In this document: in pieces, positions 1,101 through 44,254 of the stretch
How positions within the stretch are numbered: position 1 is the stretch's first letter
Layout: every line of letters starts with the position of its first letter
IMG/VR virus record: IMGVR_UViG_3300021142_000028
Location: 1 to 64,000 of that record
Source: a virus
Length of the DNA: 64,000 nt
Strand: one strand, 5' to 3'
Position numbers and translations under genes: made by a program
Notes under the pieces: generated by a model
What the model saw: the letters and a program-made list of their open reading frames with translations, nothing else
Database searches by the model: none
What the model was told of the DNA's origin: nothing

Positions 1101-1553
1101 TTATTTTGTAAATGTGTTTTTTATTTTATTTTCCTTTTCTCCCTTTTTAACTAATTTAACATATTCTTTTTTTGGTTTACCAGGTTTTTTATCTAATGCA
1201 ATATAAACCAAACATTTTTTTATTCCATCAGGTGTTTTAACATTAACATGACTTTCTTTATAATCACCAACTTTAACACCTTCTTTTTTATCCAATATTT
1301 TTATATCTGATTTTTTAATTTCCCAAACCACACCATTTACATAATCATTTTTTGTTGATTTTTTAATTGATGCAACACCATCCTCATCAAAAAATGCATC
1401 CCAACCATGTAAAGTTCCATCAGATAATTTTTTTGCATCAGGACATCTTTTTTTCATTCTTTCAACATCCATATTGGAACCATATGCAAAATATAATATT
1501 TTTGTTTCAGAAATAATTTCGTTAATTAAATTTATAATTTTAATCATATTCAT
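1101..1553 (-). CDS. gamma-glutamylcyclotransferase-like protein with packaging leader
   Basis: 150 residues. Residues about 20-26 (YFAYGSN) are the substrate-loop signature of the GGCT/AIG2-like fold. A LHGW segment and a short beta-rich body follow. The first 16 residues (MIKIINLINEIISE from Met3) form the I/L-x-E leader shared by many proteins here, so cleavage after ISE would leave the enzyme domain intact. A role as an injected GGCT-like enzyme is inferred; the substrate is unknown. Confidence 0.65.
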   Translation of the reverse strand: MNMIKIINLINEIISETKILYFAYGSNMDVERMKKRCPDAKKLSDGTLHGWDAFFDEDGVASIKKSTKNDYVNGVVWEIKKSDIKILDKKEGVKVGDYKESHVNVKTPDGIKKCLVYIALDKKPGKPKKEYVKLVKKGEKENKIKNTFTK

Positions 1554-2967: not shown

Positions 2968-3555
2968 ATGAAAATATATAATATATTAAACGAAATATTA
3001 AACGAAAATACAATAACACTACCAAATATACCAAACACAAAAAACTTTTGGCATGGTGGTAATCTTGATGATTATAATGAAATAATTGCACAAAAAAATG
3101 GTCGATATGAATATGGACCTGGTTTATATCTTATTACAAAATATAATATTGCAAAAAAATATTCAAAAGGTAGTAGAAAACTTTATATCATAACAGTTGA
3201 ATTGGGAAATGATATTACCAATTCATCAATACCAGAAAAAAATGTTCATGAATTTATAAACACCTATGTTATAAAAGGTTTAAGAAAAATTGTTATGGAA
3301 CGTTTGGAAAGATACACAGAAAATGGAATGGTAGATGCTGAAATATTCAATAATATTATTTTAAATCATAAAGCAATAAAAGGAACTAATACTTCTAAAC
3401 TACGTCAATTTTTAATTGATAATAATATTGATTACGAAATTGTTGGTAATGCGTTTGGGTTTGGAGAAAAAATGATGGTCTTGTATAATATGAAAAAGAT
3501 AGTAAATGTTTTACAAGTAAAATCAAATGATAGATTAGACAATTATGATCTTTAA
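2968..3555 (+). CDS. ADP-ribosyltransferase-like protein with packaging leader
   Basis: 195 residues. FWHGG (27-31) followed by YGPGLYLITKYNIAKKYS (49-66) resembles the His and Tyr strands of ADP-ribosyltransferase folds (H-G, then G-L-Y-L-T with a following helix). The third catalytic Glu is not certain. The N-terminus MKIYNILNEILNE ends in L-N-E, the leader type shared with other proteins here. T4 Alt is a packaged, injected ADP-ribosyltransferase with such a leader, so a similar role is inferred. Confidence 0.6.
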   Translation: MKIYNILNEILNENTITLPNIPNTKNFWHGGNLDDYNEIIAQKNGRYEYGPGLYLITKYNIAKKYSKGSRKLYIITVELGNDITNSSIPEKNVHEFINTYVIKGLRKIVMERLERYTENGMVDAEIFNNIILNHKAIKGTNTSKLRQFLIDNNIDYEIVGNAFGFGEKMMVLYNMKKIVNVLQVKSNDRLDNYDL

Positions 3556-11455: not shown

Positions 11456-11479
11456 AAAGGTGGATTAATTTCCACCTTT
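11456..11479. terminator. bidirectional terminator
   Basis: AAAGGTGGA/TCCACCTTT with A- and T-runs on either side. It serves the plus-strand gene ending at 11454 and the minus-strand gene ending at 11478. Confidence 0.75.
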
Positions 11480-12431
11480 ATTCTTTTATAACATTTATTT
11501 TTATTTTCGGTTCATAACCATTTGGTAGTCTATTATCTATACCTAGAAATTTCCCCATATTTTTATCCATCCTTATTGTTACTTCTTTTTTATCAAGATT
11601 TAACATTATCTGACCAACAGTTTGCATGTTATGTTCATTTTTTTCTCTATATGGATTGAAGAATGGGTTTTTATGATATTGTTGTCTCATTTTTTCAAAC
11701 ACTTCACTATCTGTTTTACAACTTTTCAAATATTCTTTTGCAAATAACATTCTCATATGAGAAGATTTCTTTTTAATACCTGTTGTATAACCAGCAACTT
11801 CATGTGCTATACCATGATTTGTTCTAACCATGACTTTTTTATCTTCTTTTAATTTTGTTACAACAGAAGTGTCTTTACTAGTTGCTTCAATATTATAAAT
11901 GTTTTTATTATTTCCAACCATTGTTTGACCTTTAATACCAACATTTTTTTTATCATCACCGGAGAATGAAATAACCGACTTAACAACATTTTTTATTTCT
12001 TTATGTTTTAATGCTGTTCTAATTTTAAAACCATCAGTCGCTTTCTTTCTATTTTCAGTATCGTCTAATTTTGGATCTTTAAAAACATAATTTTTTCCAT
12101 CCTTTTGTTTTTTTTCTATTTTATCACTTTCTTTTTCATCTTGTCTAACCAATAGACTTGAATTAACAATACCAATACCATATTCATTCATACCTTCAGA
12201 CCAATCGGTATCCTCATCAATCCAATATACCATTTCCACATCATCAACAACTTCATGAACTACTTTCATTTTGGCAACATAACCTCTATCTCTATTTTTT
12301 GCCAAAATAATACCATTATCAAGTCTAACTGCAGCAATTGTACATTCTTTAATTAAATTTAATTTTTCAGATTTAACTAAACTTATCTCCTCACTTATTA
12401 ATTCATTTAATTTTGATTCATTTATTATCAT
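11478..12431 (-). CDS. Ntn-hydrolase (C45/choloylglycine-hydrolase type) with packaging leader
   Basis: 317 residues. Residues 30-48 (CTIAAVRLDNG...NRD) are the nucleophile strand of linear-amide C-N hydrolases/acyltransferases: the catalytic Cys must become N-terminal, and N46-R47-D48 follows. Residues 1-29 form a propeptide containing the leader motif (LISE, 11-14) and ending in L-I-K-E directly before C30. Cleavage after I-K-E, a prohead-protease-type site, would expose the nucleophile. Substrate unknown; a cell-wall or signalling amide is possible. Confidence 0.7.
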   Translation of the reverse strand: MIINESKLNELISEEISLVKSEKLNLIKECTIAAVRLDNGIILAKNRDRGYVAKMKVVHEVVDDVEMVYWIDEDTDWSEGMNEYGIGIVNSSLLVRQDEKESDKIEKKQKDGKNYVFKDPKLDDTENRKKATDGFKIRTALKHKEIKNVVKSVISFSGDDKKNVGIKGQTMVGNNKNIYNIEATSKDTSVVTKLKEDKKVMVRTNHGIAHEVAGYTTGIKKKSSHMRMLFAKEYLKSCKTDSEVFEKMRQQYHKNPFFNPYREKNEHNMQTVGQIMLNLDKKEVTIRMDKNMGKFLGIDNRLPNGYEPKIKINVIKE

Positions 12432-28874: not shown

Positions 28875-29204
28875 TTATTTCTTTTTTTCATCTACTTGTT
28901 GGGAAAATGAATTTCTCTTGTGTGATTTAACTTTATCTTTAAGTTGAATTAATACTTTTTGTGAATTACCTAAATAACTAGATATTGAATTAATTCTACC
29001 ATTAGTAATACTTTTTAATCCTGATGGTATCGAATCTTCCAATTTACGCAATTCTTTAACGGTTTCATTTAATGAGTTTTGTAATTCTTCAATTTTAAAT
29101 TGAACTCTACTAAATTCATTTCTTGAAACCTTTGATGTTTGTTCAGATAATATTTTATCTAATATGTTTCTAACTTGTTCCTCATTGATAACATTTCTTT
29201 CCAT
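28875..29204 (-). CDS. coiled-coil protein with packaging leader
   Basis: From ATG 29204: MERNVINEEQVRNILDKILSE is the leader with cut after L-S-E. A coiled coil (FKIEELQNSLNETVKELRKLEDSI) and a basic tail follow, like T4 internal head proteins in size and charge. Confidence 0.6.
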   Translation of the reverse strand: MERNVINEEQVRNILDKILSEQTSKVSRNEFSRVQFKIEELQNSLNETVKELRKLEDSIPSGLKSITNGRINSISSYLGNSQKVLIQLKDKVKSHKRNSFSQQVDEKKK

Positions 29205-34303: not shown

Positions 34304-34645
34304 ATGAAAAAATATATATTCACAGAAAGCCAAATGAAAAATATTCTTGATAACATAATTCAAGAACATAAAACTAAAATTACCGAACAACATCAACCAA
34401 CAGGTAAATTCACATTTGCATTTGATAATCGTAAAACTAACTTCCAAGGTGAAATTAAAAAAGATGGATACCTTTATTTATCAACAGAAATGGGTAAAAA
34501 TTTTAAAGCTGGTCCTTTAGCGAAAGTTCCAACAATTGGTCAAGGAATGGTCACAATTGATAAAAAAGGAACAATTGAAAATGTTTACTTTGGTAAAACA
34601 TTATTACAATTCGTACCAAATTTCGTAGTTAAACAAATTAATTAA
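34304..34645 (+). CDS. small packaged protein, 113 aa
   Basis: MKKYIFTESQMKNILDNIIQE is the leader, with cut after I-Q-E. The mature part is a beta-rich domain (FTFAFDNRKTNFQGEIKKDGYLYLST...). Its end overlaps the convergent GIY-YIG gene by four bases. Confidence 0.6.
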   Translation: MKKYIFTESQMKNILDNIIQEHKTKITEQHQPTGKFTFAFDNRKTNFQGEIKKDGYLYLSTEMGKNFKAGPLAKVPTIGQGMVTIDKKGTIENVYFGKTLLQFVPNFVVKQIN

Positions 34646-39053: not shown

Positions 39054-39335
39054 TTATTTATATTGAGTATTATGTGCACCACAATATGTACATATCGGTA
39101 ATGACTTTTTACCCTTATGTATTGTTTGCGTAAATTTTTTATTACATTCCCTACATTTCAAAAACCTCTCATTTTTTGGATCATTGTCATGCCCACACTT
39201 ATGACATTTATATTTATCCTTACCACCATCTTTTAAACTCCATTTCCATTTACAATTATCACATAATACATAACCATCTTTAATTGTTTCAGTAATTAAA
39301 TTTTTAATTTGTTCTTCTGTTAATATTATTTTCAT
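39054..39335 (-). CDS. packaged multi-zinc-ribbon protein
   Basis: 93 residues. Leader MKIILTEEQIKNLITE, then three Cys pairs units: CDNCKWKW/CHKCG, CRECNKKF and CTYCGA. It would deliver a nucleic-acid- or protein-binding zinc module with the DNA. Its ATG abuts the stop of the next minus-strand gene. Confidence 0.65.
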   Translation of the reverse strand: MKIILTEEQIKNLITETIKDGYVLCDNCKWKWSLKDGGKDKYKCHKCGHDNDPKNERFLKCRECNKKFTQTIHKGKKSLPICTYCGAHNTQYK

Positions 39336-39617: not shown

Positions 39618-39896
39618 TTAATTTATTTTTTTAAAAAATTGTATTTTATTATACCCCAATTCTTTTTTAACAAATACAGGTGAATATGGAAACTCCTTTT
39701 TAATCCATTCATTTATTCGGATAATAAGATGATCTGTCACAATGTCATTCTCAGTTGTATATGATTTACTAAACCCCTTTTTATATAGTTGTAAATTAAA
39801 TCCCTTTAATACACATCCCTTAACAAATAAATCATCATCATTAAATTCCTCATTGATTATTCCTTTTAATTGTTCTTCTGTGATTATAATTTTCAT
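39618..39896 (-). CDS. small packaged protein, 92 aa
   Basis: From ATG 39896: leader MKIIITEEQLKGIINE, then a compact alpha/beta domain (FVKGCVLKGFNLQLYKKGFSKSY...IQFFKKI). Function unknown. Confidence 0.6.
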   Translation of the reverse strand: MKIIITEEQLKGIINEEFNDDDLFVKGCVLKGFNLQLYKKGFSKSYTTENDIVTDHLIIRINEWIKKEFPYSPVFVKKELGYNKIQFFKKIN

Positions 39897-39923
39897 AATA
39901 TATAAATACTTTAATACATAATA

Positions 39924-39947
39924 AAAAACCCCCATTATTGGGGGTTT
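39924..39947. terminator. terminator in 3' end of minus-strand gene
   Basis: AAAACCCCCATTATTGGGGGTTT. Confidence 0.7.
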
Positions 39948-41157: not shown

Positions 41158-41179
41158 AAAACCCTCATTTGAGGGTTTA
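41156..41179. terminator. bidirectional terminator
   Basis: AAAAACCCTCATTTGAGGGTTT between convergent genes. Confidence 0.75.
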
Positions 41180-41755
41180 TATATCAAAACATTTTATATT
41201 TCCTTCTTTGTCATATCCAAAATTTCCATCGTGAATATCTAAAGTACTTCCCTTAATTGGTGCAACAACACTATTAAGTTTATGTAAAAAATTTAACCAT
41301 TTAACAAATAACTGATATACACCCCTATCCATATTTTGGATTGTACTTATCACCCTATTATCATATTCCTCATCCAATATACAGTTAATAAACACATCAT
41401 TTATATTATTATCCTCATCAATCAAACCAGCATCAGTTAATAGTAATGTCATCTCAGACCACTCCTCTTTAACTCTCTTGGTATTCAATTTGTCCATCTC
41501 AACATACTTATAATCATGTCGGTCTTTTAAAATACCAACCCTATATATATTCGGAAAATATTGTGGATATTTTTTAAATATTGGCAACCATTCATCAACA
41601 AAGTGAGGATGACCAACCTTAAATACAATATTGGGATTCTTCTTTGAATCATATATCATATGTTGAGTTCCCTCCATACTAAAAGGATCTTTTCTTCTAG
41701 TAACCAATTCAGATAAAATACCCCTTAATTGTTCCTCACTTAATATTATTTTCAT
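41177..41755 (-). CDS. packaged protein-kinase-like protein
   Basis: 192 residues. Leader MKIILSEEQLRGILSE. Then VFKVGHP (Lys of the N-lobe strand), an E-containing helix, KYVEMDKL hinge, and at the C-terminus H-D-G-N-F-G (175-180) with F-D-I (190-192), the catalytic and metal-binding loops of kinase/aminoglycoside-phosphotransferase folds. It stops right after the DFG-equivalent, so the C-lobe is minimal. The start overlaps the upstream gene's stop. Confidence 0.65.
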   Translation of the reverse strand: MKIILSEEQLRGILSELVTRRKDPFSMEGTQHMIYDSKKNPNIVFKVGHPHFVDEWLPIFKKYPQYFPNIYRVGILKDRHDYKYVEMDKLNTKRVKEEWSEMTLLLTDAGLIDEDNNINDVFINCILDEEYDNRVISTIQNMDRGVYQLFVKWLNFLHKLNSVVAPIKGSTLDIHDGNFGYDKEGNIKCFDI

Positions 41756-42267
41756 TATATTTTATATGTTTGTTTATAATCTTCCCAAAGTTCTTTAACT
41801 AAAAGTTTTTTTGCGTAATCAACAGTATATTTTTCAGGTCCATTAGGATTATTTATATTATTACCAACCATTTTACTTATTTTCCTTTCTTTCAATCCTG
41901 TCATAGGATTTATACCAAATATTCTTAATATATTATATATTCTTCCGTTTCCTTGTTTATTATTGGTAATCATAAATTCAGGTTCAATAATTAATCTAAT
42001 CCATTTTAATCTATTAACCCATAAATGTAATTCTTTCATTACATTTCTAAATGTTAATTTTTCCTCATTAGACGAATCCAAATATTTTTTAAATTGATTT
42101 TTAACTTTTTCCAATTCAATGAATAAAAATTTTCTTTCATCATTTGAATGATCCTCCTTAAAGTTATCATTTTCTATGAACGCATCTATATCGTTATGAT
42201 TATATATACTAAAATATGATTCACTAATCACATGTTTTAATTGTTCCTCACTTAATATTATTTTCAT
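41755..42267 (-). CDS. packaged helical protein, 170 aa
   Basis: Leader MKIILSEEQLKHVISE, then a helical body with ELHLWVNRLKWIRLIIEPEFM. Function unknown. Its stop overlaps the kinase-like start by one base. Confidence 0.6.
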   Translation of the reverse strand: MKIILSEEQLKHVISESYFSIYNHNDIDAFIENDNFKEDHSNDERKFLFIELEKVKNQFKKYLDSSNEEKLTFRNVMKELHLWVNRLKWIRLIIEPEFMITNNKQGNGRIYNILRIFGINPMTGLKERKISKMVGNNINNPNGPEKYTVDYAKKLLVKELWEDYKQTYKI

Positions 42268-43396: not shown

Positions 43397-44254
43397 TTAA
43401 ACCATATCATATTTAATGTTATTTTTTCCCATCGCCAAACTATCTAACCCAGCCAAAAATTTTACAAAATCAGGAAAACCATCTCTAGCCCATAACACAA
43501 TCATATACTGCATATCACTATTTTTTACCCTACCAAAAAATACATCCTTAAATATCATCGGATCAATACTCTCACCAGGTTTTATCCCATACTTCTCCCT
43601 TATTGACTGAACCCTAGAACTTATCTCACTAGTATTAAAAACATACTTATTACTAAACGCATCACCCCTATTACCAATACCCAAATAATACATTACATAA
43701 TGTTTTAACTCATCATCACCACCACTCAAATTAAATGTCCTCTTAATACTCCCCACAGCATTATTAATAATATCCCCCCTGTTGAAAATACTAATCGATT
43801 TCATCTGACTATTCCTAGTTAATCCCGTTATCATACTGTCAGGATTTAATGGCAATATAAATGATAACTGATGCTGAATCTCATGAACCAATATATTTAA
43901 TGGACTCTGGTCCACCTTATTACCATATCTCATATAAACATCACAATTAACATGTATCTTATAATCACCACGTGTTGATGTGGCATAATCATTTTGACCC
44001 TTAGAATCATAAGTCATCGTTACCCTATCCAATATACCCACCCACTTCGGAATATATTCATTCATCACAACATCAACACTAATACCATTATTCTTTGCAA
44101 TCTTCTCAATTGTTACCGGATTCTTTAACCAATCCTCCCAATATTTTTTCGCTTGAGTAAACACATCATTGGAAAATAATTGCTGACACCCTTTTATATC
44201 CGTCTGCTCATTTATAATCCCCCTTAACTGATTTTCACTTATTATTATTTTCAT
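43397..44254 (-). CDS. packaged zinc metalloprotease
   Basis: 285 residues. Leader MKIIISENQLRGIINE. HEIQH at 124-128 within LNILVHEIQHQLSF is the zinc helix, and a helical body follows. It would be carried in the capsid and act in the infected cell or on virion proteins. Confidence 0.7.
   Translation of the reverse strand: MKIIISENQLRGIINEQTDIKGCQQLFSNDVFTQAKKYWEDWLKNPVTIEKIAKNNGISVDVVMNEYIPKWVGILDRVTMTYDSKGQNDYATSTRGDYKIHVNCDVYMRYGNKVDQSPLNILVHEIQHQLSFILPLNPDSMITGLTRNSQMKSISIFNRGDIINNAVGSIKRTFNLSGGDDELKHYVMYYLGIGNRGDAFSNKYVFNTSEISSRVQSIREKYGIKPGESIDPMIFKDVFFGRVKNSDMQYMIVLWARDGFPDFVKFLAGLDSLAMGKNNIKYDMV

Follow-up and report, generated by a model that had tools for sequence, protein, structure and literature searches.

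The gene considered here lies on the minus strand at positions 11478-12431 of the window, the 64-kb stretch of DNA that was analysed, which is part of a virus record of 69,276 bases. Throughout positions 1-50382, the window is identical to a 162-kb viral contig (G001) read on its reverse strand. The ORF starts with an ATG codon and encodes a protein of 317 amino acids (P0001), taken to be an Ntn-hydrolase precursor from its AlphaFold2 model and fold matches. The precursor begins MIINESKLNELISEEISLVKSEKLNLIKE-CTIAAV and has the sequence NRDR at residues 46-49. Its N-terminal leader, residues 1-29 (12345-12431, minus strand), contains four [I/L]-x-E triplets, INE at residues 3-5, LNE at 8-10, ISE at 12-14 and IKE at 27-29, only the last of which adjoins the Cys. 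The preliminary description had placed the catalytic Cys directly after L-I-K-E, and the translation of the ORF bears this out: residues 26-30 are L-I-K-E-C, with the E29 codon at 12345-12347 and the Cys30 codon at 12342-12344. The triplet I27-K28-E29 (12345-12353, minus strand) is the proposed site of a gp21-type protease, with a predicted cut after E29; as far as the sequence goes, it conforms to the [L/I]-x-E that precedes the scissile bond of gp21 substrates. Cys30 would then be the N-terminal nucleophile of a mature enzyme domain predicted to span residues 30-317 (11481-12344, minus strand).

An AlphaFold2 model of P0001, made with 44 aligned relatives, had a pLDDT of 87 and a pTM of 0.84, the pLDDT being about 61-69 over residues 1-30 and at least 95 in the blocks that follow. 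Foldseek returned 25 matches to this model at E ≤0.001, which points to the alpha-beta-beta-alpha fold of Ntn hydrolases. The top match was isopenicillin N acyltransferase (IAT; 2x1c, E 2.2e-9), and the next ranks were held by a Chromobacterium protein, bile salt hydrolases, NAAA and acid ceramidase. Structural alignment gave Z scores of up to 21.4 (NAAA 21.1, IAT 19.5-19.7, acid ceramidase 19.6, penicillin V acylase 16.2). The counterpart of model residue 30 was residue 103 in mature IAT, 126 in human NAAA, 143 in acid ceramidase and 1 in penicillin V acylase, so that the model sets Cys30 against the residue with which mature Ntn chains begin. Since the structural alignment begins at model residue 30, Cys30 is, by position, the predicted Ntn nucleophile. 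A misplaced nucleophile was ruled out by this alignment and by the spacing of 15 between the Cys and KNRDR in 323 of 323 entries. The comparison of the predicted structure thus agrees with the Ntn fold and the Cys30 nucleophile that had been proposed for this protein.

Sequence searches pointed to the C45 group. The NCBIfam model C45_proenzyme (NF040521) matched P0001 with an E value of 6.9e-13 and 48.6 bits, against a curated cut-off of 85; the match starts at profile position 88, and the propeptide part of C45 is therefore missing in P0001. A Pfam search gave no match of P0001 to AAT (PF03417). Homologues from Chryseobacterium phages fell just under the cut-off of that family (P0003, 22.3 vs 23.2) and one relative, L057, exceeded it with a score of 23.8. 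As P0001 lies under the C45 and AAT cut-offs, we describe it as C45-like and do not assign it to the family. Pfam and PHROGs returned nothing with P0001 alone, and searches of PDB sequences with P0001 and A1 produced no believable relative, the best being an SDO1-like protein (E 0.0013 and 0.047). The gene product is best explained as the zymogen of a cysteine Ntn hydrolase of the kind represented by penicillin acylases, NAAA and IAT, with a predicted amide hydrolase activity; from the nearest folds one might guess at N-acyl lipids or similar molecules as substrates.

Many other proteins of the window begin with a leader of the same type. An HMM was built from ten leaders of unrelated window proteins, including those encoded on the minus strand at 28875-29204 (MERNVINEEQVRNILDKILSE), 39054-39335 (MKIILTEEQIKNLITE, in a zinc-ribbon-like protein), 39618-39896 (MKIIITEEQLKGIINE, taking as start an internal Met of ORF 39618-39935), 41177-41755 (MKIILSEEQLRGILSE), 41755-42267 (MKIILSEEQLKHVISE) and 43397-44254 (MKIIISENQLRGIINE), and on the plus strand at 34304-34645 (MKKYIFTESQMKNILDNIIQE). 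This HMM found additional leaders in G001. It matched the Ntn leaders of two relatives, L045 (MGKSIVITESQLKQIISNVVKPEPLNE-C, of the same type as the window leader) at E 1.6e-7 and L009 at E 6.8e-4, and gave a weak match to the leader of the window protein itself (E 0.085). The matches to L045 and L009 support the earlier suggestion that the leader is common to other putative cargo. Within the window, [I/L]-x-E is enriched at residues 6-15 of proteins (30/820 positions, against 136/10,251 beyond residue 60; p 4e-6), as it is in G001 (48/1,460 against 448/32,387; p 2e-7), G005 (71/2,660; p 2e-9), G019 (p 0.002) and G024 (p 0.0065; enrichment was absent at residues 2-8 of the latter, p 0.47). The enrichment was not significant in the Chryseobacterium phage MA9V-2 (34/2,270; p 0.064), which nonetheless has clear leaders, such as MKTFTYFINE-A and MKNFFSFINE-A.

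Some leader-bearing genes deserve mention for their own sake. A gamma-glutamyl cyclotransferase-like protein (1101-1553, minus strand; Pfam GGACT E 6.9e-10, AIG2_2 E 8.1e-15) has a leader ending in LINEIISE and is possibly a packaged enzyme. A leader-bearing protein of 195 amino acids encoded at 2968-3555 looks, by eye, like an ADP-ribosyltransferase; Pfam found nothing in it. The Ntn gene of G005 sits within a run of leader-bearing genes at about 200-245 kb; this dense run (G005:C1 ~200000-245000, L240-L242), in which several products start with MNLQENI.RIKQMMG, resembles a cargo locus.

Relatives of the Ntn hydrolase were collected from viral contigs and from two Chryseobacterium phages, MA9V-1 and MA9V-2. 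The first single-protein scans included leader peptides and yielded 2 and 0 loci. The patterns used to retrieve the relatives sit downstream of the Cys; therefore, the relatives were not selected for the motif in front of it, and ascertainment by leader was ruled out. From one scan the best 80 of 456 relatives were taken. The collection comprised 326 locus entries, many of them the same contig found by several scans. The Cys was in frame in 323 entries, while the matches of the other three (L180, L313 and L397) begin at or near a contig end. Counting as distinct those that differ within a stretch of six leader residues plus 150 amino acids, there were 154 distinct relatives among the matches listed, including two (L080 and L366) that begin at a contig end within the leader and were retained. 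The residue before the Cys was compared among these phage and viral relatives. A scan of genome contigs with A1 gave 36 pattern stretches and 0 relatives, a genome-contig scan with a KpsF-like protein of MA9V-2, as a route to a Bacteroidota genome for a cellular C45 control, gave 72 stretches and 0 relatives, and a plasmid scan for a cellular C45 comparison gave no match.

Among the 154 distinct relatives listed, 148 have Glu at P1, within an [I/L/V/M/F]-x-E triplet immediately before the Cys, and the remaining six have the start Met in that place. P3 of the 148 Glu rows is I in 65, L in 64, V in 15, M in 3 and F in 1; 60 of these rows have Asn at P2. The result held upon clustering: there were 89 Glu and 6 Met rows in the 95 clusters at 90% identity, 35 and 4 in the 39 clusters at 70%, and Glu in all nine clusters at 50%. 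Relative entropy in the 89 Glu rows at 90% was 3.92 bits at P1, 1.23 at P2, 2.37 at P3 and ≤0.6 at P4-P10. Judged from these sequences, the cleavage motif alone is kept and the remainder of the leader is free. At the frequency of [I/L]-x-E beyond residue 60 of window proteins, the chance of finding it before a given Cys is about 1.3%; a chance motif was ruled out by the conservation of hydrophobic-x-E in the 148 relatives. The same conservation supports the proposal that an I-x-E site of the packaging-leader type abuts the nucleophile. The E-C junction is kept from the Chryseobacterium phages through to polyproteins of marine relatives.

What precedes this junction varies widely: it may be four residues, a leader of 10-30 residues or the long upstream part of a polyprotein, in which the Cys comes as late as residue 666. 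The shortest form, MINE-C in L176, directly follows a stop codon, and seven-residue leaders are seen in MKRILTE-C and MNKLINE-C. At the other extreme, the Cys lies more than 150 amino acids into the ORF in 21 of the 148 listed (maximum residue 666, L362), with hydrophobic-x-E-C still present. Some of the long proteins have matches to Zeta_toxin/AAA_33 and weak ones to cytidylyltransferase-like domains. A marine group (L351-L399) has the Ntn domain inside polyproteins of ~950-1400 amino acids, together with kinase-like, nucleotidyltransferase-like and other domains. In the Chryseobacterium phages, the start annotated for the Ntn gene probably lies seven codons downstream of the true one (at L004:9956-9976 and likewise in L005); the upstream ATG gives MLKTFTN...FINE-C in MA9V-2 and MLNTFTN...FLNE-C in MA9V-1, nearer to the two MA9V-2 leaders quoted above.

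The Met-Cys rows are nested among Glu rows, inside a clade of mostly short-leader forms, and correspond to three changes on a tree of the 95 rows (bootstrap range 2-3). Their sequences suggest that these relatives should need removal of the Met only. They fit the same rule, the Cys ending up first with Met removal replacing the protease, and they indicate both that the switch is dispensed with in some phages and that dependence on the virion is not universal. The preliminary description had suggested that only virion-borne copies are active; as a family-wide rule this fails, given the six Met-Cys starts among the 154 distinct relatives listed. Nor does dependence on packaging extend to the whole family, since some leaders of 4-8 residues (MINE, MNKLINE, MKRILTE) are too short for a long targeting leader and leave little room for targeting. 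The T4 Alt protein is cut after only six residues, at ITE, according to a passage of PMC5694885, and thus provides a precedent for short leaders.

G001, identical to the window over positions 1-50382, encodes both a gp21-type prohead protease (Pfam S77, PF03420) and a gp23-type major capsid protein, in keeping with the earlier assumption that the phage has a prohead protease of its own. The capsid protein of G001 carries ENQASYLINE-AATADA near its N-terminus, where gp23 of T4 undergoes cleavage. S77 was detected in 13 of 18 long records of a first set and 12 of 23 of a second, and so was gp23. The same 13 records of the first set hold both genes; in the second set G023 has gp23 alone and G029 has S77 alone. 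Long records with neither gene may be fragments. A third set had gp23 in 6 of 16 records. Outside the MA9V phages, every one of the 21 gp23 loci, which include near-copies, shows L-[ILV]-x-E at one aligned position, and the next residue is A, S, G, T or V; Cys at P1' is absent from these capsid sites. Since the capsid site is L-[ILV]-x-E and 15 of the Ntn sites have V at P3, both kinds of site include V at this position. In the relevant part of PMC9026906, T4 gp21 is described as cutting after L/I-X-E; the same source states that the processing of IPIII requires residues 8 and 10 of its targeting sequence, which is ten residues long, and that Asp at position 10 is inhibitory.

Some further features of these protease and capsid genes were noted. 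The S77 gene of G001 (C1 77554-79197; also L214:17461-19308 and L099) is interrupted by a putative intein, with Pfam matches to Intein_splicing and LAGLIDADG_3 that are both under cut-off. The insertion lies inside ELNHPS...SSLIDLDRVSH, adjoining the likely catalytic His, and a relative, L092, is uninterrupted. The S77 domain of MA9V-2 (W01; L227:6979-10602) is part of a 1207-amino-acid protein that contains several internal [FLI]-x-E sites and in which the protease may be fused to core or scaffold sequence. Matches to gp23 read through two TAA codons in G016:C1:123761-125188 and through one in G030:C1:75614-77005.

Together, these observations led us to postulate, with a probability of about 0.77, that the precursor is directed into the prohead by its leader and that gp21-type cleavage at IKE-C exposes the nucleophile. 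The leader would carry the precursor into the prohead core in the manner of T4 capsid-targeting sequences, as suggested by its occurrence in unrelated proteins. At head maturation, the S77 protease would cut after the Glu of [I/L/V]-x-E, here between E29 and C30; we infer the enzyme responsible from the conserved motif and from the fact that this phage has genes for both the protease and the capsid protein. The active site of an Ntn hydrolase consists of the free amino group and the side chain of the first residue, here a thiol. The cut would leave Cys30 first and so create this site, a step based on the chemistry of the family and on the position of Cys30 in the structure comparison. The enzyme would consequently be blocked in the producing cell and armed inside the capsid, and, delivered with the DNA, it might act upon molecules with amide linkages at an early stage of the next infection. 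We slightly favour the fuller version of this scheme, in which the Ntn hydrolase has lost the ability to activate itself, is synthesised as an inert precursor or within a polyprotein, is unlocked only by the prohead protease and is active on reaching the next host. Points that count against the scheme are the lack of Cys at P1' of the capsid sites, the weak HMM match of the window protein's own leader, the non-significant enrichment in MA9V-2, the Met-Cys relatives and the shortest leaders. We found no virion proteomics of such a phage; passages of the MA9V-1 paper mention SDS-PAGE only.

A possible but less likely interpretation shares the cut itself with this scheme and differs in its purpose: gp21 would remove the leader as it does from any cargo, a tagged Ntn hydrolase would simply need a cut ending exactly at its Cys, and the motif would reflect a constraint of cargo tagging, control of activity being incidental. 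Many other cargo genes indeed bear the same leaders, and the phages with Met-Cys relatives (G017-G020) also carry S77, so activity in the infected cell must be tolerated in those phages. Yet such forms are rare and nested among Glu rows, as described above, and the MINE-C forms keep the cut site though almost no leader remains.

The main rival to cleavage by the prohead protease is autocatalysis, which we consider improbable. Here, as with C45 proenzymes and glutamine amidotransferases, the folded precursor would use its own Cys to remove the leader, and the Glu at P1 and hydrophobic residue at P3 would serve self-cleavage. The nearest NCBIfam model is indeed C45_proenzyme, and Bacillus PurF, too, has Glu before its Cys. 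Moreover, autocatalysis is described as the rule for Ntn hydrolases, and short propeptides before the catalytic Cys are described for PRPP amidotransferases, in sections of PMC9140057 and PMC7056826. However, autocatalysis does not predict that P3 should be I, L, V, M or F in all 148 Glu rows listed while neighbouring positions vary freely, nor that these P3 residues should agree with those of the capsid protein's own sites, nor that the leaders should be common to other proteins; and the family is without the long C45 propeptide. Removal of the leader by a host protease is most improbable: it has no supporting point other than that a motif by itself names no enzyme, whereas the motif equals gp21 specificity, the phage has an S77 gene, and the E-C junction, kept from Chryseobacterium phages to marine polyproteins, would require a shared host protease.

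If prohead-protease cleavage does expose the nucleophile, the proteolysis of capsid maturation would, beyond remodelling the shell and releasing cargo leaders, make the catalytic residue of an enzyme. This zymogen switch would couple enzyme activity to successful virion assembly and be common to a large phage group, and an Ntn hydrolase would be matured by a separate viral protease and not by itself. That Ntn hydrolases need an exposed N-terminal nucleophile, and that T4-type cargo is tagged with leaders cut by the prohead protease, is already known. In open PMC papers we found no case of a prohead protease activating an Ntn hydrolase; what appears to be new is the exact superposition of nucleophile and prohead-protease site, kept across the listed relatives, which we did not find in that literature.

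The phage protein can be set beside several known systems. The C45/AAT enzymes (IAT; NF040521, PF03417) resemble the phage protein in sequence and provide its best Foldseek match (2x1c), but the phage protein has no long autoproteolytic propeptide and has Glu before its Cys, where IAT has Gly. The penicillin V acylases and bile salt hydrolases (C59) share the Ntn fold and the N-terminal Cys; unlike the phage protein, they have no leader with a prohead-protease site. The C59 enzymes have a Met-Cys start, which the Met-Cys relatives resemble. NAAA and acid ceramidase (C89) also have a Cys nucleophile and align from residue 30 on; their maturation is described as autocatalytic, whereas the phage protein has a prohead-protease motif before the Cys. 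The embedding of the Ntn domain in multidomain proteins of marine relatives recalls the polyvalent proteins of phages and conjugative elements (PMC5512222); a word search of the main text of that paper gave neither "Ntn" nor "hydrolase". A further likeness is to the internal proteins and Alt of T4, where short N-terminal leaders ending in [L/I]-x-E, an S77 protease, a gp23-type capsid and cargo of varied function likewise go together. The T4 leader is known for targeting, whereas here the predicted cut abuts the catalytic nucleophile. Whether propeptides control the activity of Alt is posed as a question in a passage of PMC5694885; because the position of the cut decides activity in an Ntn hydrolase, the phage enzyme would offer a direct test of it.
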